From the IMG/VR virus record IMGVR_UViG_3300037502_000755, positions 1 through 35,022 of that record: a DNA stretch of 35,022 bases. The stretch is one strand, 5' to 3'. A model generated the notes under the pieces. The model saw only the letters and a list, made by a program, of their open reading frames with translations, made no database searches and was not told where the DNA came from. Shown here piece by piece: positions 8,184 to 25,045 of this stretch. Each line of letters opens with the position of its first letter. Position 1 is the stretch's first letter. Both the position numbers and the translations under genes were made by a program. This DNA comes from a virus.

Positions 8184-8680
8184 ATTTGTGTGACGGTTAA
8201 GATGACAGAAGGGATCGCCGGGCGTGTCGGGTTACTTGCGGCGGCGACATAGTTAAGGAATACCCCAGTATCGGAAGAGTGCCAACATATTTCGAAATAA
8301 TCCCCGGTGGACGCTGCGACGACGAAATTCCACGCGGCGACGTGCTTCCCGTTATTCCCGACAAGCGTCATTTGTGTATTGCTATTGGCGACCGGAGATC
8401 CGTTTTTGCATAGCCAAATATCGACGATGTCATCCCCGGAATCCGTCTTGTCGAGTTGAGCGGAAAATTGGATGTTGTAAATTCCGGCATTGGCAATCGT
8501 CACCCGCGAATTGGAAACAATCGATACTCCGGATGCGATGTCGGTAACGTTCAAAGTCATCTTATTCGTCGCCGTCGCTCCCGCGTTGGTTTGGTCTTGC
8601 GTCGAATAGAACGACCCGTAAAATGAGCGTCCGTCGAATATCTCGACTGTTTGTTCGGTTATGTTTATTTCGTAACTCAT
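8180..8680 (-). CDS. C1q/TNF-like head or tail fibre
   Basis: 166 residues. From residue ~19 the sequence follows the jelly-roll pattern of phage C1q-like fibre heads: YGSFYSTQDQTNAG, MTLNVTDIASGVSI, ITIANAGIYNIQFSAQLDK-like stretch, VDIWLCKNGSPV, VAAWNFVVAASTGDYFEICW. This family trimerises and is used as decoration or receptor-binding knobs. It sits in an overlapping trio with its neighbours (ATGA at both ends), suggesting one appendage made of several chains. Confidence 0.65.
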   Translation of the reverse strand: MSYEINITEQTVEIFDGRSFYGSFYSTQDQTNAGATATNKMTLNVTDIASGVSIVSNSRVTIANAGIYNIQFSAQLDKTDSGDDIVDIWLCKNGSPVANSNTQMTLVGNNGKHVAAWNFVVAASTGDYFEICWHSSDTGVFLNYVAAASNPTRPAIPSVILTVTQI

Positions 8681-9027
8681 GCGGGTTCGGTGACCTCCTC
8701 GACCACTTCAAATTTGCCTCCGATGTATGTTTTGTAAACTCCGGAATTTATGGTGAGCATATCCCAGACATAATCCCCAGCGGCGATGTTTACGCGCTTC
8801 GATACCGTGACCTCATTCGACGATGCACCGCCGACGGTGATCCCGTCCGCTTCGGTGATTGTCACCTCCGCCGTCGTGGATGTGGCTTTGCGCCGGATCT
8901 GGATCCGCACTTCCGCGCCGGATAGGTTGACCGCAACGGAATCTTTGAAGATGACGAACGTGGATTGCCACGTGTTGCCCTTCGTGAGTTTTATGTTGTA
9001 CGTTGCCGGAAGAAAGTTGCCCGCCAT
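8677..9027 (-). CDS. BppU-like Ig-fold virion protein
   Basis: 116 residues. Pattern: YNIKLTKGNTWQSTFVIFKD, VNLSGAEVRIQIRRKA, TEADGITVGG, VTVSKRVNIAAGDYVWDM and YIGGKFEVVEEVTEPA. This is the 'G.T....F...D....LTG...R.QIR....' signature of upper-baseplate/fibre-anchor Ig-like domains. It starts five bases after a CTAATTA motif and overlaps the C1q-like fibre gene by ATGA, so it probably anchors that fibre. Confidence 0.6.
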   Translation of the reverse strand: MAGNFLPATYNIKLTKGNTWQSTFVIFKDSVAVNLSGAEVRIQIRRKATSTTAEVTITEADGITVGGASSNEVTVSKRVNIAAGDYVWDMLTINSGVYKTYIGGKFEVVEEVTEPA

Positions 9028-9032
9028 GTCGT

Positions 9033-9039
9033 TAATTAG
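9033..9039 (-). promoter_or_regulatory. CTAATTA start-site motif
   Basis: CTAATTA-ACGAC-ATG(9027). Here the motif is in the 28-base gap and is not part of the preceding stop codon, showing that its conservation is not only a stop-codon effect. Confidence 0.55.
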
Positions 9040-9055
9040 GTGTTATGATGAATTG

Positions 9056-10111
9056 TTACCCGATGGATTGCAGAATATCGATGATCCGCGCCATTATTTC
9101 CTCGTCCTTGGTTTGTTCGGCGCGTTCATATTGGAATATTCCCTCAACCGAAAATCCCTTCACTTCCCCGGCTTCGACCTTCGCCCAACCCTCATCGTCG
9201 GTGATTTTCATCGATCCGAACCACGTGCCGTCGGGAAGATCTTCGTACCCTTTCATTCCGCCGATCCCGCGTTCGCTATCCTTTACCCATGATTCGAATA
9301 GTACCGCGTCGACCCGCTGATCCTTGTCGTGTTGTAAGTTGACGTTCCGTTGATACCCTTGTTTCGCAAATCGGATGGCGATTTGCTTAATCGTCTCTGG
9401 CGAAAACTTGATGAAATATTCTCCATGCGCATCGCGGCGAAGGATCAATTTATCGGGGATCATCAACGCGCCGGATACGATCCTTTGCGCGGAATCTTGA
9501 ATCGCCAACTTAACTTCCGACGCTTGGCGAAGTACATTCCGCGACCAACGGAGACCCGCTTTGCCACCCCATGCGTCGTACATAAGTTTCCCGCATCCGT
9601 CGCCGTAGCCCTTCGATGCTTCGAGATCCCCCTCATGCCGGGAAAGGTAGGAGTACATCCGGCGTACCGTGTCGAGCGATACGGCCCCGGAAGGATCGGC
9701 GAGTTGCGATGCGCGGCGTTTCCCGACGGGAGTACCGCAAGATCCCCATCCGTTTTTGTCCGCCCATTCTACCGCGTTCCGGGCATTTGCGCGAACGTCG
9801 TCGGGGATGTCCTTTATGGATTCCTCGAACTCTTCGCCATTTTTCGCACGGTTACCCCATTGCCCATAGCACATCGCGACGGCTTGATCTTGTTCGTAAC
9901 CTTCGCCAATCATTTTCGGAACACATCGCCCAATGAACTCGTCTTCGGATTCGCCTTCGTTTGGCTCCATGAATAGGTCGCTGAACGCTTGGAAATTGCG
10001 TTGTATTGCCGGGCGATCGACGAGTGCGATGTAGTCGACCTCAAAATTCCCCTCGTCCGCTTCGGATATGGTGAGTTCGTAAATTGGTAACTCTTCTTGC
10101 ATTGTTGCCAT
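9056..10111 (-). CDS. XkdF-like prohead protease with inserted domains
   Basis: 351 residues. Residues 10-42 (YELTISEADEGNFEVDYIAL...) and 211-330 together form an XkdF/peptidase S78-type fold: MIPDKLILRRD, FSPETIKQIAIRF, His261 in NLQHD and Ser321 in GFSVEG are the likely catalytic pair. Between them sits an insert: ~59-90 (RCVPKMIGEGYEQDQAVAMC) and ~104-195 (ARNAVEWADKNGWGSCGTPV...GKLMYDAWGGKAGLRW), two helical modules also known from portal- or capsid-linked proteins. It should process scaffold and capsid during head maturation. It lies directly after the tape measure, not beside the capsid genes. Confidence 0.75.
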   Translation of the reverse strand: MATMQEELPIYELTISEADEGNFEVDYIALVDRPAIQRNFQAFSDLFMEPNEGESEDEFIGRCVPKMIGEGYEQDQAVAMCYGQWGNRAKNGEEFEESIKDIPDDVRANARNAVEWADKNGWGSCGTPVGKRRASQLADPSGAVSLDTVRRMYSYLSRHEGDLEASKGYGDGCGKLMYDAWGGKAGLRWSRNVLRQASEVKLAIQDSAQRIVSGALMIPDKLILRRDAHGEYFIKFSPETIKQIAIRFAKQGYQRNVNLQHDKDQRVDAVLFESWVKDSERGIGGMKGYEDLPDGTWFGSMKITDDEGWAKVEAGEVKGFSVEGIFQYERAEQTKDEEIMARIIDILQSIG

Positions 10112-15690: not shown

Positions 15691-15697
15691 TAATTAG
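15691..15697 (-). promoter_or_regulatory. CTAATTA start-site motif
   Basis: CTAATTA-ATGGC-ATG(15685). The TAA inside it is the stop codon of the preceding gene, so stop and start signal overlap. Confidence 0.55.
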
Positions 15698-16389
15698 GCA
15701 TTCTGCGCGGGATTGAACTTCCGGATGGCAATCCGGATGTCGAACGCGGCGGCTTTGGCTACCGCCTCCGCGAAATTATCCCCGAAATATTCGGCGACGG
15801 GTTTGTCGAAATACCCCGTGTACGGCAAACCCTCTCGTTTTATCTTCCGGGCGGTAAAGTATGCAAACGAGTCGAGCGGATCCTGAACCGCCGCGATACT
15901 CTTCCGTTTTTGTTGTAGCGCGGATAGGTTTGTTTTCTGCGATTCGTTCGCCGTTGGAGTTATGCCGTTTTGTCGGAGCCATCCTTTGATGGCCTCGACC
16001 ATGACGGGCGGAGCGGATAATTTGCGGAACTTGTACGGACTATTGGCTGGCTCACCGGACACCAAACCCTTCACCCCTTTGTTTACAAAATCCCAATATT
16101 TAGCGGACGGATCATTTTTATCGTATCCGATTTCGAGGATATACATCCCCTTGTACTTCAGGATTTCGCCGGAATCAACGCCATCAGAAAGTCCACCCGT
16201 GGATATTTTCCCGGCTGAATTTAGGTTGTCCTTGATCGCTTGGACAAACTCGTTGGCATAACGAGCGAGCAATTCCTCAATCGTCGGTGTACCGCTTCCG
16301 CCCGTTCGATCGACTTTTTCGACGGCTTGCCGATCGATCCAACCTTCCGTTAATAACTCCGCTTGCGCTTGGGATTCGGATTTCGCCAT
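15694..16389 (-). CDS. putative tail completion/HK97 gp10-like protein
   Basis: 231 residues. N-terminal helices (PTIEELLARYANEFVQAIKD), a GKISTGGLSDGV turn, then YILEIGYDKNDPSAKYWDFV and NKGVKGL, which resembles the basic alpha/beta core of gp10-like tail-completion proteins (positioned '..YW.FV..G..G'). The C-terminus is helical and basic. It lies between the tail chaperone genes and the tail-tip gene. Function inferred from this pattern and place. Confidence 0.5.
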   Translation of the reverse strand: MAKSESQAQAELLTEGWIDRQAVEKVDRTGGSGTPTIEELLARYANEFVQAIKDNLNSAGKISTGGLSDGVDSGEILKYKGMYILEIGYDKNDPSAKYWDFVNKGVKGLVSGEPANSPYKFRKLSAPPVMVEAIKGWLRQNGITPTANESQKTNLSALQQKRKSIAAVQDPLDSFAYFTARKIKREGLPYTGYFDKPVAEYFGDNFAEAVAKAAAFDIRIAIRKFNPAQNA

Positions 16390-17155: not shown

Positions 17156-18319
17156 TTAGACAAAAGTATATTTTCCGCTCGTCCTCGACCTTTGGAATTT
17201 ATGCCATGCCAACCCTAACGCCATTACGCAGTCGTCCGTGAACCCCGTCGGCGCGGCATATCGTACCCCGTGCGCGGTGTATTGATATTCGAACACTTCC
17301 AACTCCCGCGTAATTTGCCCCTCCGGGAATGATATGATCCGTTGCTGAATCGCCGTTACCAACCCGTCCATGAGTTGTTGTTTGGATTGCGACGAAAACT
17401 TGTAGCCTTCCACCGGACGACCATCCCGGGCGAGATCCTCGAATATCGGATCCCCGACACCCGTGGAATCGATTAGCGTCGGAACGCGTGGGAGTGCCGA
17501 AATCGCTTGTTTCGTTTGCCTCCAATCGCGTTGGAAACGTTCATAATGGCACACCCCGCCATTGGCATCGATTCCAACGATCACCGTCCAATCGACGGAC
17601 TTCGCCAGATCCACGCCGAAACAAACGGGCGGCGCGGTGCTGATCGGATAGATACATTGACGGATGTACGTTCCCCCGAACGGATTCGCTGCATTGTCCA
17701 TCGGATCCGCGAGGTACTCTTGACGGAATACGTCCGCCGGGAGTTGATCCCGTGCCGCGTCGATCTCCATTCCGGAGATGTGCGGGTTGTCGTATGATGA
17801 ATATTTGAACGATGCCCAGTCCGGATCGGATCCGTCACCCTTCATGAAGAGGGAATAAAAGTAGTTTTTACCGCGTGGCGTGGAAAGGAATAACGCGTTC
17901 CCGGAATAATCGGTAAGCGTTGGACGGATTGAGTTTTGCCATCCGCTTTCAAGGTTTGGAATGAATGATGCCTCGTCGATTATCGCGGTGTGGAACGATT
18001 GACCCCGTAGGCGATCAAGTTTTTCCCCGGTGAAAAATCTGATTTGTCCTCCGTTGAACTCAATCAATTTATCCGATCCGTTCCGGTATATTGTCGGCGG
18101 TAATTCTTTGGCGAGCGCATCGAAGAATACCCCGGCGAGTAAATACGTCGGCGTGATATAGGCCACCTTTTTCCCCTCCCCGCATTTCATCAACGCGATG
18201 ATTTGCGCGATCAATGATTTCCCAAACCTCCGACCACACATGAGAACGCGGAACCTCGCCGAGGAATCGAGGACGGTTTGTTGCGCGGGGTGCGGTATGT
18301 TAGCAATCTGGATTTGCAT
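17156..18319 (-). CDS. terL: terminase large subunit
   Basis: 387 residues. Walker A-like CGRRFGKS (28-35), Walker B with catalytic Glu AIIDEAS (112-118), and coupling motif STPRG (146-150). The RNase H-fold nuclease has Asp237 in GVDLAK, Asp284 in LIDSTGVGD and Asp362/363 in GFTDDCVMAL. This packs DNA into the prohead by ATP hydrolysis and cuts it. The length is short for the family but both domains are complete. Start ATG immediately follows the stop of a small upstream ORF (TAAATG). Confidence 0.93.
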   Translation of the reverse strand: MQIQIANIPHPAQQTVLDSSARFRVLMCGRRFGKSLIAQIIALMKCGEGKKVAYITPTYLLAGVFFDALAKELPPTIYRNGSDKLIEFNGGQIRFFTGEKLDRLRGQSFHTAIIDEASFIPNLESGWQNSIRPTLTDYSGNALFLSTPRGKNYFYSLFMKGDGSDPDWASFKYSSYDNPHISGMEIDAARDQLPADVFRQEYLADPMDNAANPFGGTYIRQCIYPISTAPPVCFGVDLAKSVDWTVIVGIDANGGVCHYERFQRDWRQTKQAISALPRVPTLIDSTGVGDPIFEDLARDGRPVEGYKFSSQSKQQLMDGLVTAIQQRIISFPEGQITRELEVFEYQYTAHGVRYAAPTGFTDDCVMALGLAWHKFQRSRTSGKYTFV

Positions 18320-19634: not shown

Positions 19635-19667
19635 CAAAGATAACACATCTTCAACACAAGTTCCAAA
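19635..19667 (-). promoter_or_regulatory. Bacteroidota-type promoter
   Basis: Minus strand TTTG (19667-19664), 21 bases, TATCTTTG (19642-19635): a full match to the Bacteroidota -33/-7 consensus. The surrounding ~38 bases are nearly identical to the promoter at 27152. It drives the small ORFs at 19614 and, by read-through, the genes before terminase. Confidence 0.8.
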
Positions 19668-19689: not shown

Positions 19690-20055
19690 TTATTTTCCGA
19701 GCGTGATCACGATTTTTTCCTCGGACTTTACATCGATCGATTCGCGTGGTTTCCCGTACACCCGGGTTAATAGCGTTTCGATCGAATATAGCGACCCCTT
19801 CTCGATACTCTTTCGGATCGCCGCCGCGATTGTCTTTTCCAATACCGTCGCCTTCGGGTTTTTCCACACCTCTCCGAGTTCCTCGATCGTCATGGATAGC
19901 ATGACTTGAATTGAATCATTAACTTCCGAAATTTTGTATCCTTGCGCTCGGAGTTCCGACACGAACTTGCGCGGCCTTCCGTTCGGGTTTCCAGATTCGC
20001 CCTTATTCGGCACAATTAGCGTTCCGCCTTTCTTCGTCGTTATCTTTCTGGGCAT
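19690..20055 (-). CDS. putative terminase small subunit
   Basis: 121 residues from ATG 20055; the longer frame to 20178 overlaps the methyltransferase end. It holds NKGESGNPNGRPRKFVSELR, the GNPNGRP signature of a DUF5681-type domain found in small terminase-like proteins. A helical core follows (VMLSMTIEELGEVW; KATVLEKTIAAAIRKSIEKG) and a C-terminal VYGKPRESID. It lies 1.4 kb before terL. The small subunit recognises phage DNA and stimulates the large subunit. No distinct HTH seen by eye, so the assignment is moderate. Confidence 0.6.
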   Translation of the reverse strand: MPRKITTKKGGTLIVPNKGESGNPNGRPRKFVSELRAQGYKISEVNDSIQVMLSMTIEELGEVWKNPKATVLEKTIAAAIRKSIEKGSLYSIETLLTRVYGKPRESIDVKSEEKIVITLGK

Positions 20056-20072
20056 TCTGTTGTAATTCTGTT

Positions 20073-21176
20073 TTAGACCACTTCCCCGTTCCGCTTGATT
20101 ACCAATGCCGGATCGAGTTTGCGCATCCGATCGACGATGACTTGGCAATATTTCGGATCCAATTCCATCCCGTAACATTTGCGCCCGAGTTGATGCGCGG
20201 CGACCATTGTCGAGCCGGATCCGCAGAACGGATCGAATATAGATTTTTGATCACCCGCATAATTGATGCAAAATTCCATGACCTTTATCGGCTTTTGTGT
20301 CGGATGTTCGCTTCCTTTTAATGCGGAACGATTCACCGTTATTGATCGTAACGGCTTGTCGATTGATGTCCACGCCAATTCTCCGTCGCTCATTGTTAGG
20401 CCGTCTTGACCCTTCGACCAATATAGCCACCCCCTTGATGCGGGGAGCATATCGGCGAAATAATTGCCGCCCCAGATTATTGCGGTGTCGCAATGGAGCA
20501 ACAAAAAATCGAAAGTAGATTGTTCTGGCCTTTGCGAATCCCACCCTCTAAACTCGTGAAATTTCCGATTATGCTTTGGATTTTTTGCTTTGCTTTCCTT
20601 TTGCCCATCGATTCCTATCCCGTATGGCGGATCTGTTAAAATTAGTTCCGCCTTGTCGTTATTCATCAACCGCGCCACATCATCCGCGTTTGTGCTATCC
20701 CCACACAATAACCTATGATCCCCAATCTCGAATAGATCCCCCGGCACGATGTCCGTCGTGATCGTTTCCGGCACGTCGTAATCGTCCTCCTCGGCTTCCG
20801 GCTCTAACTTAAAATCCGGCACATCCAATCCCCATTCCTCCAATTTATCCGCCTCCCAATTATTCGCGAGTTCTTCCCAATCCCACTCACCGAATCCGAC
20901 GTTATCCTTGATGATAAATTCCCGTTGCTGATCCTCCGTCAGATCCTCCGCCCGGATTATCGGCACCATCTTCAACCCCGCTTCTTTGCACGCCTTCAGC
21001 CGCATATTTCCGCCCAGAACGATCATATCATCATTGACGACGATCGGGCGGAGTTTCAGCATCTCCGGGAATGTCTTGATCGATTCGACCAACTTCCGGA
21101 ACTTTTCATCTCGAATTGTCCGGGGATTGTTCGGATTCGCTTTGACCTCCGATATTTTGACCTCTTGAATTTTCAT
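20073..21176 (-). CDS. ParB-domain DNA methyltransferase
   Basis: 367 residues from ATG 21176, chosen for its ATGA overlap (an ATG at 21206 would run into the upstream gene). Residues 1-90 are a ParB/sulfiredoxin-like domain (VKANPNNPRTIRDEKF; GGNMRL 55-60). After an acidic linker, a DNA methyltransferase has DPPY (182-185) for base flipping and FDPFCGSGST (314-323) for AdoMet binding. DPPY before FxGxG indicates the beta class, methylating adenine N6 or cytosine N4. No cognate endonuclease is visible, so it likely protects phage DNA. It ends the coupled cassette. Confidence 0.88.
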   Translation of the reverse strand: MKIQEVKISEVKANPNNPRTIRDEKFRKLVESIKTFPEMLKLRPIVVNDDMIVLGGNMRLKACKEAGLKMVPIIRAEDLTEDQQREFIIKDNVGFGEWDWEELANNWEADKLEEWGLDVPDFKLEPEAEEDDYDVPETITTDIVPGDLFEIGDHRLLCGDSTNADDVARLMNNDKAELILTDPPYGIGIDGQKESKAKNPKHNRKFHEFRGWDSQRPEQSTFDFLLLHCDTAIIWGGNYFADMLPASRGWLYWSKGQDGLTMSDGELAWTSIDKPLRSITVNRSALKGSEHPTQKPIKVMEFCINYAGDQKSIFDPFCGSGSTMVAAHQLGRKCYGMELDPKYCQVIVDRMRKLDPALVIKRNGEVV

Positions 21177-21841
21177 AAGTTCGTCCTCCCTTCGTAGTTC
21201 GGCCATTTATACTCTGGATAAAATACATCGTACTTTTTATAGTGCGCGTACATCGATGTTACTTTCCCCCATACCTCCCCGCATTTTTGCAACCCGGCAT
21301 CCTTCATCCTCCGGTATTCGGAATCCTGCCCGACATCGTGGCCGATGTGTTCCGATCTCGGCGCGTCGATATAGTAATTATTGAACCCCATCGCATGGGC
21401 GCGGTGACACCAATCCGAATCTTGCATCCCGTATGGATCAAACATTTGATTAAAATGTCCGACGCTTGTCAACGCGAGCCGGGGATACAATGCATTCCCG
21501 AACACTATCTCGCCGGGGTACACCTTCACGCCTCCGATCATCTTTTCAGCGTAGAGATCTTGCACCGTGTAGAGTGCCGCGCAACCCGTTTCCGGGATCG
21601 CTTCCGCCGCCTCTACGGCCTTCGCGAGCCATCCGTCCGGCATGAGGATGTCGTTGGACATCGTAAACAGAGCGTCGTAGTGTTCGGCTTGCTCCATCGC
21701 TACATTCAACGCCCGGGCGATGCCGAACTCGTCGATCGTCGCAAGATCGAATCCGCATCCCGCGTTCGCGGAGTTATGCTCGACGACTTGTTTCGTGAAC
21801 GTATGACGCGAGTAATCCAATAGCGCGACGAGTACCCTCAT
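21173..21841 (-). CDS. GT2-type glycosyltransferase
   Basis: 222 residues from ATG 21841 (ATGA overlap; the TTG at 21865 was rejected). A GT-A pattern: MRVLVALLDYSRHTFTKQVV, ARALNVAMEQAEHYDALFTM, SNDILMPDGW in the DxD position, GNALYPRLAL and YGMQDSDWCHRAHAMG, the acceptor-side ED-type motif of GT2 enzymes. It transfers a sugar from a nucleotide-sugar donor; the acceptor is unknown. It ends with an ATGA overlap into the methyltransferase. No membrane segment, so it acts in the cytoplasm. Confidence 0.75.
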   Translation of the reverse strand: MRVLVALLDYSRHTFTKQVVEHNSANAGCGFDLATIDEFGIARALNVAMEQAEHYDALFTMSNDILMPDGWLAKAVEAAEAIPETGCAALYTVQDLYAEKMIGGVKVYPGEIVFGNALYPRLALTSVGHFNQMFDPYGMQDSDWCHRAHAMGFNNYYIDAPRSEHIGHDVGQDSEYRRMKDAGLQKCGEVWGKVTSMYAHYKKYDVFYPEYKWPNYEGRTNL

Positions 21842-22512
21842 TTTTTGTTTTTTTGCTCGATCCAATTTTTGGCAAAGTTCGCACCTTCGACGAACGCTTC
21901 CATTTCCTTATGGGTAAAATTATTCATAAGCGACGCTCCGTAAACCGCCACGTCGAACGCGTCATCCTTTTCCGTCTTCGCCCCGGCATACTTCACATTC
22001 AACCCGAGCATCCGTACCGGAACCCCGGCGTATTTATGCCCCCTCTGAAGTTGTGCTTTATGTCCGACGAACGCGGAGGCTCCAATCATGCATCCGGCCG
22101 GGATCGTGACCTTTTGATGAATGACGGCATTCAGGCCAATGTTCACGTCGTCCTCGATCACGCAATGCCCGCCGATCTTCACACCGCATGAAAGGGTTAC
22201 GCCGTCGCCGACATGAGCGTCGTGTCCTACATGTGCGTGTTTCATGATGTAGCAATTTTCCCCGATGTACGTTTTCTTTTCACTCCCGGAGTCGATCGTT
22301 ACCAATCCCGTGATTCGAGTCCCTTTGCCAATGTGTACCCCCATCATGTTTGATTCCCGTCCGCGATATTCCGGCGGTGCGCCGATGATGCAATACGCGC
22401 CGATTATCACATCCGCGTCGATGGTTACGTTTTCGTAAATCACCGCCGTTTTATGGATGTACGCGCTCTTATGAATTTTTGCGGGTTGCCATCCGCTTCC
22501 GTCGTTTGTCAT
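21838..22512 (-). CDS. left-handed beta-helix acyltransferase-like protein
   Basis: 224 residues from ATG 22512 (ATGA overlap). Hexapeptide repeats are clear: IHKTAVIYENVTIDADVIIG, IGENCYIMKHAHVGHDAHVG, VTLSCGVKIGGHCVIEDDVN and IGLNAVIHQKVTIPAGCMIG. HAHVGHD resembles the active-site region of LpxA/FdtC/NeuD-type acyl- or acetyltransferases. The C-terminal ~50 residues are helical. Its substrate might be a nucleotide sugar used by the adjacent glycosyltransferases. LpxA-like lipid A synthesis in the strict sense is unlikely, as the usual fixed motifs were not all found. Confidence 0.75.
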   Translation of the reverse strand: MTNDGSGWQPAKIHKSAYIHKTAVIYENVTIDADVIIGAYCIIGAPPEYRGRESNMMGVHIGKGTRITGLVTIDSGSEKKTYIGENCYIMKHAHVGHDAHVGDGVTLSCGVKIGGHCVIEDDVNIGLNAVIHQKVTIPAGCMIGASAFVGHKAQLQRGHKYAGVPVRMLGLNVKYAGAKTEKDDAFDVAVYGASLMNNFTHKEMEAFVEGANFAKNWIEQKNKK

Positions 22513-23549
22513 TTGATTAAGGTTTGATAAAGTTCTTTGCGTGTTGCGTTCCATTTTTTAAGGTCGTGATTCTCCCGGCACCATTCGCCGTTCTCCTCTC
22601 CAATCTCTTTTCGATACCAATCGTACTTTACAAGTTTTTTGAAACTTTCGTACCAATCACGTTGATGTTTTACTTTGATCGCATAAGGACAATCGTCATA
22701 TGGCGGAACGTTGGACACGATGATCGGGATATTTTTACAACCCGCTTCGAGTACCTTGATGTTCGACTTGCAAGCGTTGAACGTTGATTCAATCAATGGA
22801 GCGACCGCGATATCCGCCTCCGCGTAAAATGCCATGTATTGGTCTGGCGGTAAAGGATTCCGCACGTAACCCTCCATGCGGAACCCGCAAAGGTAGTCGC
22901 TGATCATGCGATGCCATATCGGAGTCACTTTCGGATTACTATCATCGTACCCGGCCATAATCATGAATAACCGATCTCGGAGCCACGTATCCGACGCGAT
23001 TCTTTTCATCGGATTCTGCAATAATGCGACATCTCGTTCGTGAGTAATCCCTCCGGCATACAATACTCGAAGGCGTTTCGTATCCTCGAAAATTCCATCC
23101 TTGTGTATCCCGGCTACCTTCTGCATTGTGAACTGATCCTCCCCGTATGGTAAGGCGTTCGGGAGTATTTCACAATTCGGATTGTGCATCAACACCGCAC
23201 GGCGGAGGCGTTCATGTGTGACGGTTACCAGATCAGCGGCGGCGATATGATCGACGACGACGGCGGAGGGGAATCCGGCGGCGAGGATATGCCACGGATC
23301 TAATTTCCAATAATCGTCAATGTCAACAACGATTTTGAAACCGTACTTTGTTCGAAAATCCAACAATGTTTGAAGTTCAACGCCGGGGATGTAGCGATTG
23401 AACATCACGATGTCGAAACCGCGCTCCAAGACCTCGTCATTGATGAAATCCGTAAATAGGACATACACCCCCGGTATCTTGGAAAGCGGGAGCATGACGC
23501 GGTGGTACCCTACCCCGGACATTGGTTGAGTGACGGCAAGGATTCTCAT
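22509..23549 (-). CDS. GT4-like (GT-B) glycosyltransferase
   Basis: 346 residues from ATG 23549 (ATGA overlap). N-terminal Rossmann-like MRILAVTQPMSGVGYHRVML, VVDIDDYWKLDPWH, LVTVTHERLRRAV, then PNALPYGEDQF. In the second half YAEADIAVAPLIESTFNACKSNIKVLEAG matches the donor-binding E-x7-E region (APL.....N..KS.IK..E). GT4 enzymes of this kind act on glycans; acceptor unknown. The architecture is complete and no membrane helix is seen. Translationally coupled to the PP-loop gene before it and the beta-helix gene after it. Confidence 0.78.
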   Translation of the reverse strand: MRILAVTQPMSGVGYHRVMLPLSKIPGVYVLFTDFINDEVLERGFDIVMFNRYIPGVELQTLLDFRTKYGFKIVVDIDDYWKLDPWHILAAGFPSAVVVDHIAAADLVTVTHERLRRAVLMHNPNCEILPNALPYGEDQFTMQKVAGIHKDGIFEDTKRLRVLYAGGITHERDVALLQNPMKRIASDTWLRDRLFMIMAGYDDSNPKVTPIWHRMISDYLCGFRMEGYVRNPLPPDQYMAFYAEADIAVAPLIESTFNACKSNIKVLEAGCKNIPIIVSNVPPYDDCPYAIKVKHQRDWYESFKKLVKYDWYRKEIGEENGEWCRENHDLKKWNATRKELYQTLIK

Positions 23550-24403
23550 GTTAGTTCGCAATATCCGGTATCGCATGAGGTGAAATCCTCTGCGAATAGC
23601 GTCATTTGTTTTAGCATATTTTTAATCCGGGAATATTTGATCACCTCCCCGTTTACTGATTTCCAATACCCATTTGTCCCGCCCTCTTGCTTTTCAAACC
23701 AATCCATTTTGGCTGGATGTTCTTGGTACATGAACCGAAGGAAAGGCGGATTTCGATGAAAGCACCCGACACAATTATTGTATTCCGCAAACTTTACGGG
23801 CTTGCCTTTCCAATAATTTTGTATGTCAATTTTGTAAATATTGTCATCGATAAGCGGGAACGCTGGCCGCTGCCATTCAATTTCTGCCCATCGGTTTCGT
23901 CCGTCCTTTGTTTTGCCGATAACTGATCGATGCGTAAGATAACCGGATCCGTTAACCTTTTCGATCATGCGGTTTGCCCGCTTGGTTTCATTTGCCCGGA
24001 AACCGATTTGCATCGTCACCGGATCGGTCGAAAGTGAATCCCAATACTCGAACATTGGTTTTATTTTTAAAAACGATGTGCAGTATCTCGTCATAATGTT
24101 CGGAAGATAACCGCCTCGGCTTTTTATTGCCTCATCAAACGTCATCCCGGTGACCCATTTTATTTCACGCCCCAAAAATTGCTCGAGGTCGAGCATCGTC
24201 CTGATAATTGCATCATCTTCAGATGTTGCAATAAATTCCGCGCCAATCTTATCCGATACGATCTTGCGGATGCCTTCATCTGGGTACATCGATTCATGAT
24301 GATCAATTCGAACGAGTGCAAAAATTAATACATCCGATGGATAATTTGCGGCGATGTACGCCGAGGTCTGCCCTCCTGAAACCGATGTCCATACTTTACT
24401 CAT
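23546..24403 (-). CDS. PP-loop ATPase / PAPS-reductase-like protein
   Basis: 285 residues. Starts MSKVWTSVSGGQTSAYIAAN: SGGQTS (9-14) is the PP-loop that binds ATP pyrophosphate. Cysteines at RYCTSFLKI, NNCVGCFHRNP and SCDTGYCELT may bind a metal or Fe-S cluster. This family includes PAPS reductase, DndC (DNA phosphorothioation) and other sulfur/adenylate enzymes; many phages carry uncharacterised relatives. It opens the coupled cassette behind an ACACACTATG start motif. No DndB/D/E partners are present, so classical phosphorothioation is not supported. Confidence 0.75.
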   Translation of the reverse strand: MSKVWTSVSGGQTSAYIAANYPSDVLIFALVRIDHHESMYPDEGIRKIVSDKIGAEFIATSEDDAIIRTMLDLEQFLGREIKWVTGMTFDEAIKSRGGYLPNIMTRYCTSFLKIKPMFEYWDSLSTDPVTMQIGFRANETKRANRMIEKVNGSGYLTHRSVIGKTKDGRNRWAEIEWQRPAFPLIDDNIYKIDIQNYWKGKPVKFAEYNNCVGCFHRNPPFLRFMYQEHPAKMDWFEKQEGGTNGYWKSVNGEVIKYSRIKNMLKQMTLFAEDFTSCDTGYCELT

Positions 24404-24410
24404 AGTGTGT
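24401..24410 (-). promoter_or_regulatory. ACACACTATG start motif
   Basis: Exact copy ending in the start codon of the PP-loop gene at 24403; AAA precedes it. A weak TAACTTTA sits ~15 bases upstream but no clear -33 element. Confidence 0.5.
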
Positions 24411-24429
24411 TTTATGTGCTAAAGTTAGG

Positions 24430-24804
24430 TTATTTCTTTTTAGGGCGACCCGCTTTTCTTTTGATGGGAGTGTCGACGACGCTTTCGCCGACCTGAACCG
24501 GGATTGTATCGAGATCATCCGGGAAAACGAATTGCGCCGCTACGTTATCCGATCCGGCTTGGAGCGATAACATTTCCTCGTCGATAATGCCGTCGTACCA
24601 TGCCGCGAGTTTCTGCACCATTTCGACGACACATGACGGACACCACGGCGTAAGGATGTAGCCCGGCTGCACATATTTGACGAAGATTGCGTTGAATCTA
24701 TCCATGACGTACGGACTGAATCCGTGCAGAAAATTCATTTTCGCCTGCTCGAAATATACTTTGTGCGATTCGAGGAAATCGCGATCATCTTGCGTCAAAA
24801 TCAT
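24430..24804 (-). CDS. hypothetical protein with AT-hook-like tail
   Basis: 124 residues. Helical start (ILTQDDRDFLESHKVYFEQA), an FVKYVQPGYILTPWCPSCVV segment with a CxxC pair, then acidic linker and a C-terminal KRKAGRPKKK, which resembles an AT-hook (GRP flanked by lysines). This could bind AT-rich DNA. I recall similar proteins in Bacteroidota phages without known function. It overlaps the preceding membrane-protein gene by 20 bases. Confidence 0.55.
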   Translation of the reverse strand: MILTQDDRDFLESHKVYFEQAKMNFLHGFSPYVMDRFNAIFVKYVQPGYILTPWCPSCVVEMVQKLAAWYDGIIDEEMLSLQAGSDNVAAQFVFPDDLDTIPVQVGESVVDTPIKRKAGRPKKK

Positions 24805-25045
24805 GCGACTTGTTTTTTAAGTTCTTCATCATGTTGTTGAATAGCCACGCCACGACCGAAGATCCGAAAACGATTGCGGTTGCTTCGGATACCCAATCGG
24901 GCGCGAAATATAAGGCGGTGGATACGTACACGGGCAAACAAACCACACATCCGAACGGACGGGCGGGGAGTTTCCATTTTTGCGGCAAGCCTGACAATGT
25001 GGCAAACCAAAACGTAAATAATGCGGAGGCGATTATTGTGATCAT
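24785..25045 (-). CDS. small membrane protein with CVVC motif
   Basis: 86 residues. Hydrophobic segments at ~2-20 (TIIASALFTFWFATLSG) and ~56-70 (EATAIVFGSSVVAWLF), with a PFGCVVCLPV segment between them that may form a third, short helix; the C-terminus is basic. Similar small membrane proteins occur in Bacteroidota phages, unnamed. Start by ATGA overlap with the preceding gene. Confidence 0.55.
   Translation of the reverse strand: MITIIASALFTFWFATLSGLPQKWKLPARPFGCVVCLPVYVSTALYFAPDWVSEATAIVFGSSVVAWLFNNMMKNLKNKSHDFDAR

Follow-up and report, generated by a model that had tools for sequence, protein, structure and literature searches.

Do the genes of a closely joined viral cassette serve one pathway, or do several systems stand side by side within it? 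The question is raised by a locus in the window (the whole stretch of DNA analysed here, 35,022 nucleotides of the IMG/VR virus record IMGVR_UViG_3300037502_000755), in which five minus-strand open reading frames at positions 20073-24403 encode a PP-loop protein, a GT-B glycosyltransferase, a left-handed beta-helix (LbH) acyltransferase, a GT-A glycosyltransferase and a ParB-methyltransferase. An initial annotation had described these genes as linked by four ATGA overlaps, and the ORF coordinates confirm this, with ATGA at each junction (23546-23549, 22509-22512, 21838-21841 and 21173-21176), of which the one between the PP-loop gene and GT-B was also read directly; the longer starts that the ORF finder gave GT-B, LbH, GT-A and the methyltransferase lie upstream of the overlap ATGs. 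The domain names it had assigned to the five proteins likewise agree with the domain, PHROG, PDB and structure matches. It had also proposed that the overlaps keep the proteins in fixed ratios, a suggestion that finds no support, since such junctions are commonplace both in this genome (10 of the 45 called) and in the loci of its relatives (251 of 1380), where they are retained when neighboring genes are swapped. The cassette is nonetheless no chance assembly, because GT-B, LbH, GT-A and ParB are conserved in many relatives. Our comparison set comprises about 80 related phage contigs of 30-36 kb, most of them possibly incomplete, so that the absence of a gene from a record is not proof that the phage lacks it.

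The sugar genes and their exclusive decorators

The GT-B glycosyltransferase (346 aa, 22509..23549, minus strand) is present in 39 of 40 records and is a core gene of the lineage; its dN/dS reveals purifying selection, with values of about 0.02-0.10 for GT-B, LbH and GT-A alike. It matches phrog_7162 (E 7e-52), and its AF2 model (pLDDT 93.8) has GlgM, MshA and BshA as best PDB matches. Glu268 is among its invariant residues, and the GT-B fold is combined with the conserved glutamate of the E-x7-E region, as in GT4-type retaining enzymes. In the relatives' loci this gene is accompanied by a second glycosyltransferase and one decorator.

The decorator in the window is the LpxA-like LbH acyltransferase (224 aa, 21838..22512, minus strand). 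It forms a fixed pair with its obligate partner GT-A (222 aa, 21173..21841, minus strand), which follows LbH in 32 of 32 cases. LbH matches Hexapep (E 2e-22) and, in the PDB, LpxA chains and 8e62 (E 1e-37), an entry on which the literature yielded nothing useful. Its histidines align to the 'HxxHD', 'GH' and 'HQ' of LpxA, and the H of HD and the H of HQ are invariant in all 26 LbH proteins compared; a left-handed beta-helix and a catalytic histidine are thus both in place. The likeness to LpxA, the UDP-GlcNAc acyltransferase (PDB 1lxa, 8e62), lies in this fold and in the aligned catalytic histidines; however, the LbH proteins of this lineage have only about 158-224 aa, are without the standard LpxA C-terminal domain and adjoin glycosyltransferases. 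GT-A matches phrog_2456 (E 1e-8), its AF2 model (pLDDT 81.9) has a GT-A fold that matches GalNAc-T2, SpsA and WrtF, and its invariant residues are N63-D64 and D141/D143.

Among 46 loci the decorator is LbH in 26, a Methyltransf_23 enzyme in 12 and an RMNT_CmcI-type methyltransferase in 4. Two decorators never occur together, either in these 46 or in all the loci fetched, an exclusivity that partly tracks clades: the independent pairs number only 4-5, and a sign test does not reach significance. Some relatives have a GT2, a PLOD-type glycosyltransferase and an O-methyltransferase in place of the GT-A/LbH pair, and in others GT-B stands with the Methyltransf_23 enzyme; by analogy only, these methyltransferases may be glycan O-methyltransferases. 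We suggest that GT-B would transfer a first sugar, that GT-A would add a second and that LbH would put an acyl group, probably acetyl, on the sugar, the sugar nucleotide or the finished glycan. Across the relatives, one core transfer would then be capped in mutually exclusive ways.

The proposed glycan and its acceptor

Most probably the sugar genes assemble a decorated glycan on one of the virion's proteins. Since each of these enzymes appears soluble, the likeliest acceptor is either a cytosolic structural protein of the phage, to which we give a little less than an even chance, or a lipid-linked precursor of a host surface glycan, which we hold to be distinctly less probable. Virion glycosylation accords with the conservation throughout the lineage of glycosyltransferase genes whose products appear cytosolic, none of the five cassette proteins having a membrane-grade hydrophobic segment. 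Phage-encoded glycosyltransferases are also found in the mycobacteriophages, where Che8 gp110 and Corndog gp38 are virion glycosylation genes and proteins of the capsid and the tail tube carry glycans (Freeman et al. 2023, cited in PMC12363180). That system is set beside ours by description, and it differs in that the text consulted (PMC12363180) describes no exclusive acyl or methyl decorators like those seen here.

Weighing against a virion target, most structural proteins remain about 88-100% alike when phages that differ in their sugar module are compared. Divergence with the module is largely confined to the fibre, the tape measure and a single protein of 231 aa (15694-16389); as a means of finding the target, this covariation was abandoned, the divergence being insufficient to name one. 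Nor were Ser/Thr-rich glycosylation tails conspicuous.

The sugar genes could instead act on the cytosolic side to modify the LPS or capsule of the host and thereby block superinfection or the re-adsorption of progeny, a reading that we consider unlikely although it has several points in its favor. Enzymes of lipid A and O-antigen synthesis belong to the LbH family, GT-A resembles the surface-polysaccharide enzymes WrtF and SpsA, and the polymorphic glycosyltransferase clusters of jumbo cyanophages, which make sugar nucleotides and have epimerases, have been so interpreted (PMC7824862). These clusters (PMC7824862) resemble our loci in combining glycosyltransferase, sugar-modifying and O-methyltransferase genes that vary between close relatives; the loci described here differ in that one core GT-B is accompanied by a minimal and exclusive decorator, in small phages of 30-36 kb. 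A search of the literature on Phapecoctavirus glycosyltransferases gave nothing useful. Against such a host-directed role, the five proteins have no membrane-grade segment, and there is no flippase, polyprenol glycosyltransferase or membrane acyltransferase of the kind found in gtr/oac cassettes; a seroconversion cassette of that type (flippase GtrA, polyprenol glycosyltransferase GtrB, membrane glycosyltransferase or acyltransferase) was rejected on this ground. Moreover, the near-universal conservation of the core gene exceeds what an optional exclusion gene would need.

Next door to the cassette lies a conserved gene for a small membrane protein (24785-25045, 86 aa) that could serve a membrane-linked glycan. 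It belongs to the genomic backbone, being found also upstream of TerL in Mucilaginibacter records that have no cassette.

The ParB-anchored slot and the PP-loop gene

At the other end of the block, the fifth reading frame (20073-21176, minus strand) joins an N-terminal ParB domain (20892..21176; PF02195, E 4e-8) to a beta-class DNA N6-adenine/N4-cytosine methyltransferase domain (20073..20714; PF01555, E 2e-20; phrog_498, E 7e-84). The latter matches solved methylases including DpnA, CcrM and RsrI and carries the motifs DPPYGI and FDPFCGSGST in the order IV-I; ParB_N and N6_N4_Mtase domains with DPPY and FxGxG motifs characterize it as a ParB-fused beta-class enzyme. In relatives that lack the methyltransferase part or have another protein in its stead, ParB stays as a stand-alone protein of 147-221 aa and is the constant anchor of a slot, situated before the terminase gene, that may hold Mom, a Tet/JBP oxygenase, an ABC-GNAT protein, an IbrA-like PP-loop enzyme or nothing. 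A DUF5681 gene (19690..20061, minus strand; PF18932) forms the right border of the exchange region and directly follows ParB or ParB-methyltransferase in 31 of 43 cases; its position upstream of TerL (17156-18319) makes it the probable small terminase subunit. An N6/N4 methyltransferase is found in 17 of 40 records, no PF01555 match occurs in the records of L073, L077, L088, L090 and L107, and 10 loci with the LbH-GT-A pair have neither ParB nor methyltransferase in the slot.

By analogy with Mom, a known anti-restriction protein that occupies the same slot in relatives, the ParB-methyltransferase is most likely a separate anti-restriction gene, which would protect the phage DNA from host restriction independently of the sugar genes. 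The slot thus resembles the systems of ParB-fused methyltransferases (phrog_498) and Mom-like proteins (phrog_1384) in its domain combination and in having Mom at the same place; here, however, ParB is the fixed element, and partners of at least five kinds alternate beside it. ParB-superfamily partners are known from other DNA-modification systems (DpdB and DndB; PMC12839542), and the literature on ParB, Tet and Mom together offered nothing useful.

The initial annotation had weighed two readings, the first being that a DNA base is modified and then glycosylated and acylated by the cassette enzymes; we considered it with hydroxylation as the initial step. In its favor, Tet/JBP (PF12851) occurs in 4 of 37 records (L004, L042, L043 and L046), where the oxygenase occupies the neighboring slot, and the GT-B fold is common to T4 alpha-glucosyltransferase, a low-rank match. 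Nonetheless, no base hydroxyl is visibly made, because the window and most relatives are without Tet/JBP and all 37 records are without a thymidylate-synthase homologue (PF00303), a partner that the initial annotation had already reported as missing from the window. N6/N4-methylated bases offer no hydroxyl either, and GT-B is retained whichever DNA modifier is present and also where there is none. From these sequence comparisons, glycosylated-DNA hypermodification is disfavoured and appears improbable. A 300-aa protein beside Tet/JBP in L042 and L043 was considered as a candidate Tet-associated glycosyltransferase, but searches of Pfam, PHROG and the PDB gave no match for it, and it showed no relation to GT-B.

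The PP-loop, or PAPS-reductase-like, protein (285 aa, 23546..24403, minus strand) is the product of an accessory gene. It matches phrog_424 (E 2e-22) and, over residues 68-148 (81 residues only), the PADLOC SspD (E 8e-11); the SGGxTS motif and Cys108, 211, 214 and 282 are invariant in the aligned phage homologues, and comparison with the PDB by sequence and by profile gave no significant match. Apart from one marginal match, the gene is found in 2 of 37 records, and a scan of viral contigs gave no confirmed relative. In close relatives g24.4 leads straight into GT-B, through an ATGA junction in 26 of 32 of them, and the left edge of the insertion is visible at 24404..24429 (minus strand); judged from this boundary, the gene is a clean, recent insertion. 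Only one further record has a clear copy; there the gene is flanked by a DnaB-like helicase and a RusA-like gene, and the region read contains no LbH, GT-A or ParB. Homologues in other phages sit among replication genes, with methylases alongside in two. The enzyme would most likely carry out sulfur chemistry on nucleic acids or nucleotides, and the sugar genes would not need it.

It is very improbable that this enzyme and ParB are a reduced unit for Dnd/Ssp-like phosphorothioation, or for some other sulfur-based modification of DNA, the sugar genes being merely enclosed by them. The SspD-type match, the four invariant cysteines, the replication and methylase neighbors elsewhere, the membership of DndB in the ParB superfamily (PMC12839542) and the slot of L086, which holds a second ParB and an IbrA-like PP-loop gene that matches DndC, would all suit such a unit. 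But the two genes stand at opposite ends of the block, the other bearer of the PP-loop gene shows no ParB in the region read, and ten further window proteins scanned gave no match to DndD, DndE, SspB or SspC. The protein shares with SspD, DndC and the PAPS reductases the SGGxTS PP-loop and cysteine pattern, and differs from them in that no partner genes of those systems were found and in its lack of a significant PDB sequence match.

Probably three units in one operon

In the related contigs the block splits into three independently changing parts, with modular swaps at constant flanks. A TerL tree of 45 loci shows at least 15 switches of the DNA slot and 7 of the glycosyltransferase module, and no coupling between the two was detected. 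That all five genes form one obligate pathway can practically be discarded, for all its four ATGA overlaps, given the gene distributions (PP-loop gene 2 of 37 records, N6/N4 methyltransferase 17 of 40, GT-B 39 of 40) and the independent swapping of parts. We consider it likely that the cassette contains three functionally separate units, namely the glycan module, the DNA slot and the PP-loop enzyme. The initial annotation could name no system for this combination because several stand side by side; its second reading, a sugar module with a separate anti-restriction methyltransferase, gains from the comparative evidence as regards separability. Independent loss in relatives, which it had proposed to look for, is seen for the PP-loop gene and the methyltransferase and not for the LbH-GT-A pair or GT-B.

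Two kinds of phage self-modification that had seemed possibly one are hence separated, and ParB emerges as the partner that stays the same across many kinds of DNA-modification chemistry. We tentatively propose, as a possibility short of probable, that a whole lineage of small phages, probably infecting Bacteroidota, may depend on a core glycosyltransferase for decorating their own virions, each phage carrying one of several mutually exclusive caps (an acyltransferase or one of at least two methyltransferase families). The virions would then fall into serotype-like glycan types, and these would be exchanged without regard to the ParB-anchored slot. The relatives constitute a natural experiment, in which one backbone carries varied sugar decorators and varied DNA modifiers, and in a lineage with a core glycosyltransferase the targets of such phage enzymes become a testable question.

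Layout of the exchange region in the window and its relatives

The virus record is linear (35,022 bases), and its five minus-strand genes between 20073 and 24403 lie exactly where the initial annotation had placed them, coupled by ATGA overlaps at 23546-23549, 22509-22512, 21838-21841 and 21173-21176. Downstream are a DUF5681 protein, the probable small terminase (TerS), and the large terminase (TerL, 17156-18319); portal, protease-like, tape-measure and fibre genes are found elsewhere in the record. About 80 related loci were gathered by a scan with the block's GT-B glycosyltransferase and then with TerL. The exchange region has fixed flanks, a 124-aa gene upstream and TerS with TerL downstream, between which the close relatives were compared; their TerL, where present, is about 89-98% identical to that of the window. 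A small membrane protein (24785-25045; two or three helices by eye, CxxC motif) is a backbone gene, kept upstream of GT-B in most relatives.

The window carries the order PP-loop gene, GT-B, LbH (a hexapeptide beta-helix enzyme), GT-A and a ParB-methyltransferase fusion. Among the close relatives, locus L002 has GT-B, LbH, GT-A, ParB and Mom on a short contig that ends before TerL, and L003 has GT-B, LbH, GT-A and ParB, with a methyltransferase two genes past TerS. A different sugar set, GT-B, GT2, PLOD and an O-methyltransferase, is followed by ParB and a Tet/JBP oxygenase in L004; it occurs with an HNH gene and the ParB-methyltransferase fusion in L005 and L006, and with ParB alone in L007. 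The initial annotation had observed the block correctly but interpreted it as too much of a unit.

The top cellular matches to TerL are Mucilaginibacter records (48-50% identity) that have one or two backbone genes in common with the phage. Two minus-strand matches to the promoter form TTTG-N-TAnnTTTG, at 19667 and 32107, would be weakly in line with a Bacteroidota host.

The sugar module and the target of its glycan

GT-B (22509-23549) matches phrog_7162, and its predicted structure is a confident GT-B model (pLDDT 93.8) whose top solved neighbours are the GT4-type enzymes GlgM, MshA and BshA. LbH (21838-22512) is near PDB 8e62 and LpxA; the LpxA-type histidines align, those of the HD and HQ motifs being invariant in 26 sequences. 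GT-A (21173-21841) has no Pfam family match, and its GT-A model (pLDDT 81.9) matches GalNAc-T2, SpsA and WrtF. The dN/dS of all three is about 0.02-0.10, and from their sequences the enzymes look soluble. A distant GT-A homologue sits inside a sugar cluster of the podovirus ctQWt234 (MW202801, 4920-9583), close behind the major capsid gene; the six genes of this cluster encode an Fe-S oxidoreductase, a glycosyltransferase, PhyH, a methyltransferase, NodB and another glycosyltransferase.

GT-A follows LbH in 32 of 32 loci, the pair standing before or after GT-B. At the 46 loci with both flanks present, the enzyme that accompanies GT-B, its decorator, is LbH in 26, of Methyltransf_23 type in 12, of RMNT_CmcI type in 4 and none of these in 4; two decorators never occur together (0/46). 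Fisher's test of LbH versus Methyltransf_23 gives 3e-6, a value uncorrected for kinship among the loci; over independent pairs, which number only 4-5, the exclusivity falls below significance. LbH and the methyltransferases may be alternative caps, acyl or methyl, on a glycan started by GT-B. One phage scored as decorator-free (L068) has a further set between GT-B and TerL, GT-like, methyltransferase-like and GT2-like by eye.

Glycosylation of the virion is our first choice for the function of the sugar genes, at somewhat less than an even chance, because a route to a base hydroxyl is not visible, the enzymes appear soluble, their dN/dS is low, the ctQWt234 cluster exists, and there is a precedent in mycobacteriophages, in which virion glycosylation is established (PMC12363180). 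Action on a surface glycan of the host comes second and is rather unlikely. Glycosylation of DNA requires a hydroxyl on the base, and the proposal of DNA base glycosylation is disfavoured for want of any visible route to one in the window phage or most relatives. In the tail region, a 231-aa protein (15694-16389) is 62% identical in the related phages G003 and G004, and its direct neighbours are 89-95% identical; G003 and G004 are alike here, and they have in common a sugar module other than that of the window.

The PP-loop gene

The product of the first gene (23546-24403) belongs to phrog_424, a phage family of PAPS-reductase-like PP-loop proteins. PADLOC gives it an SspD-type match, and four of its cysteines are invariant across the aligned phage homologues. 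In relatives the upstream gene joins GT-B directly by ATGA; in the window the PP-loop gene has been placed exactly at this junction and the ATGA re-formed. Only one relative has a clear counterpart (42% identical), which is preceded by the gene of a DnaB-like helicase and followed by a RusA-like gene; the region read in that phage holds no LbH, GT-A or ParB. In other phages its neighbours are SSB, RecT, helicases and replication initiators, with methyltransferases in two. It is a mobile accessory gene, linked to DNA metabolism and not to sugars; a paper on Thermus phages reports PAPS-reductase homologues as phage inserts (PMC11437467).

The ParB-anchored slot and its independence

The last gene (20073-21176) fuses ParB_N to a beta-class N6/N4 DNA methyltransferase. 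An anti-restriction role for this enzyme is supported, because the ParB slot is mostly filled by known or predicted DNA-modifying enzymes; the Dpd and Dnd systems also have ParB-superfamily partners (PMC12839542). Tet/JBP-family oxygenases occupy the slot in L004 (9729-10517), L042 (7690-8604), L043 (8726-9640) and L046 (3-449), where the phrog_6059 label "queuine tRNA-ribosyltransferase" is at odds with their Tet_JBP match. Between ParB and the oxygenase, L042 (6809-7711) and L043 encode a 300-aa protein, GT-B-like by eye and without a Pfam, PHROG or PDB family match, which is a possible candidate for a DNA glycosyltransferase. Among more distant loci, L051 pairs ParB with an ABC-ATPase-GNAT fusion (8550-9626), which replaces the methyltransferase; for proteins of this type an acyl modification of DNA bases has been predicted (PMC7824862). 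In L086 (7437-9611) the slot holds, beside ParB, an IbrA-like PP-loop PAPS-reductase (DUF3440), a 165-aa protein and a second, IbrB-like ParB, with matches to DndC and BrxP models; some other distant loci have no ParB at all. The short ParB proteins of L003 (4443-4886) and L007 (5581-6024) end in a zinc-ribbon-like CPHCGEVI tail at the position otherwise taken by the methyltransferase.

Each common sugar module is found with several states of the DNA slot. On the TerL tree of 45 loci there were at least 15 changes in the slot and at least 7 in the sugar module, and no coupling of the two appeared among the few independent pairs, in which a weak one could have been missed. GT-B is present in 39 of 40 records, the N6/N4 methyltransferase in 17/40, Tet/JBP in 4/37, the PP-loop gene in 2/37 (a marginal hit set aside) and thymidylate synthase in 0/37. 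The notable feature of the region is a different one from that initially proposed: a glycosyltransferase that is a core gene and whose decorators exclude one another, adjoining a slot, anchored by ParB, in which DNA modifiers are interchangeable.
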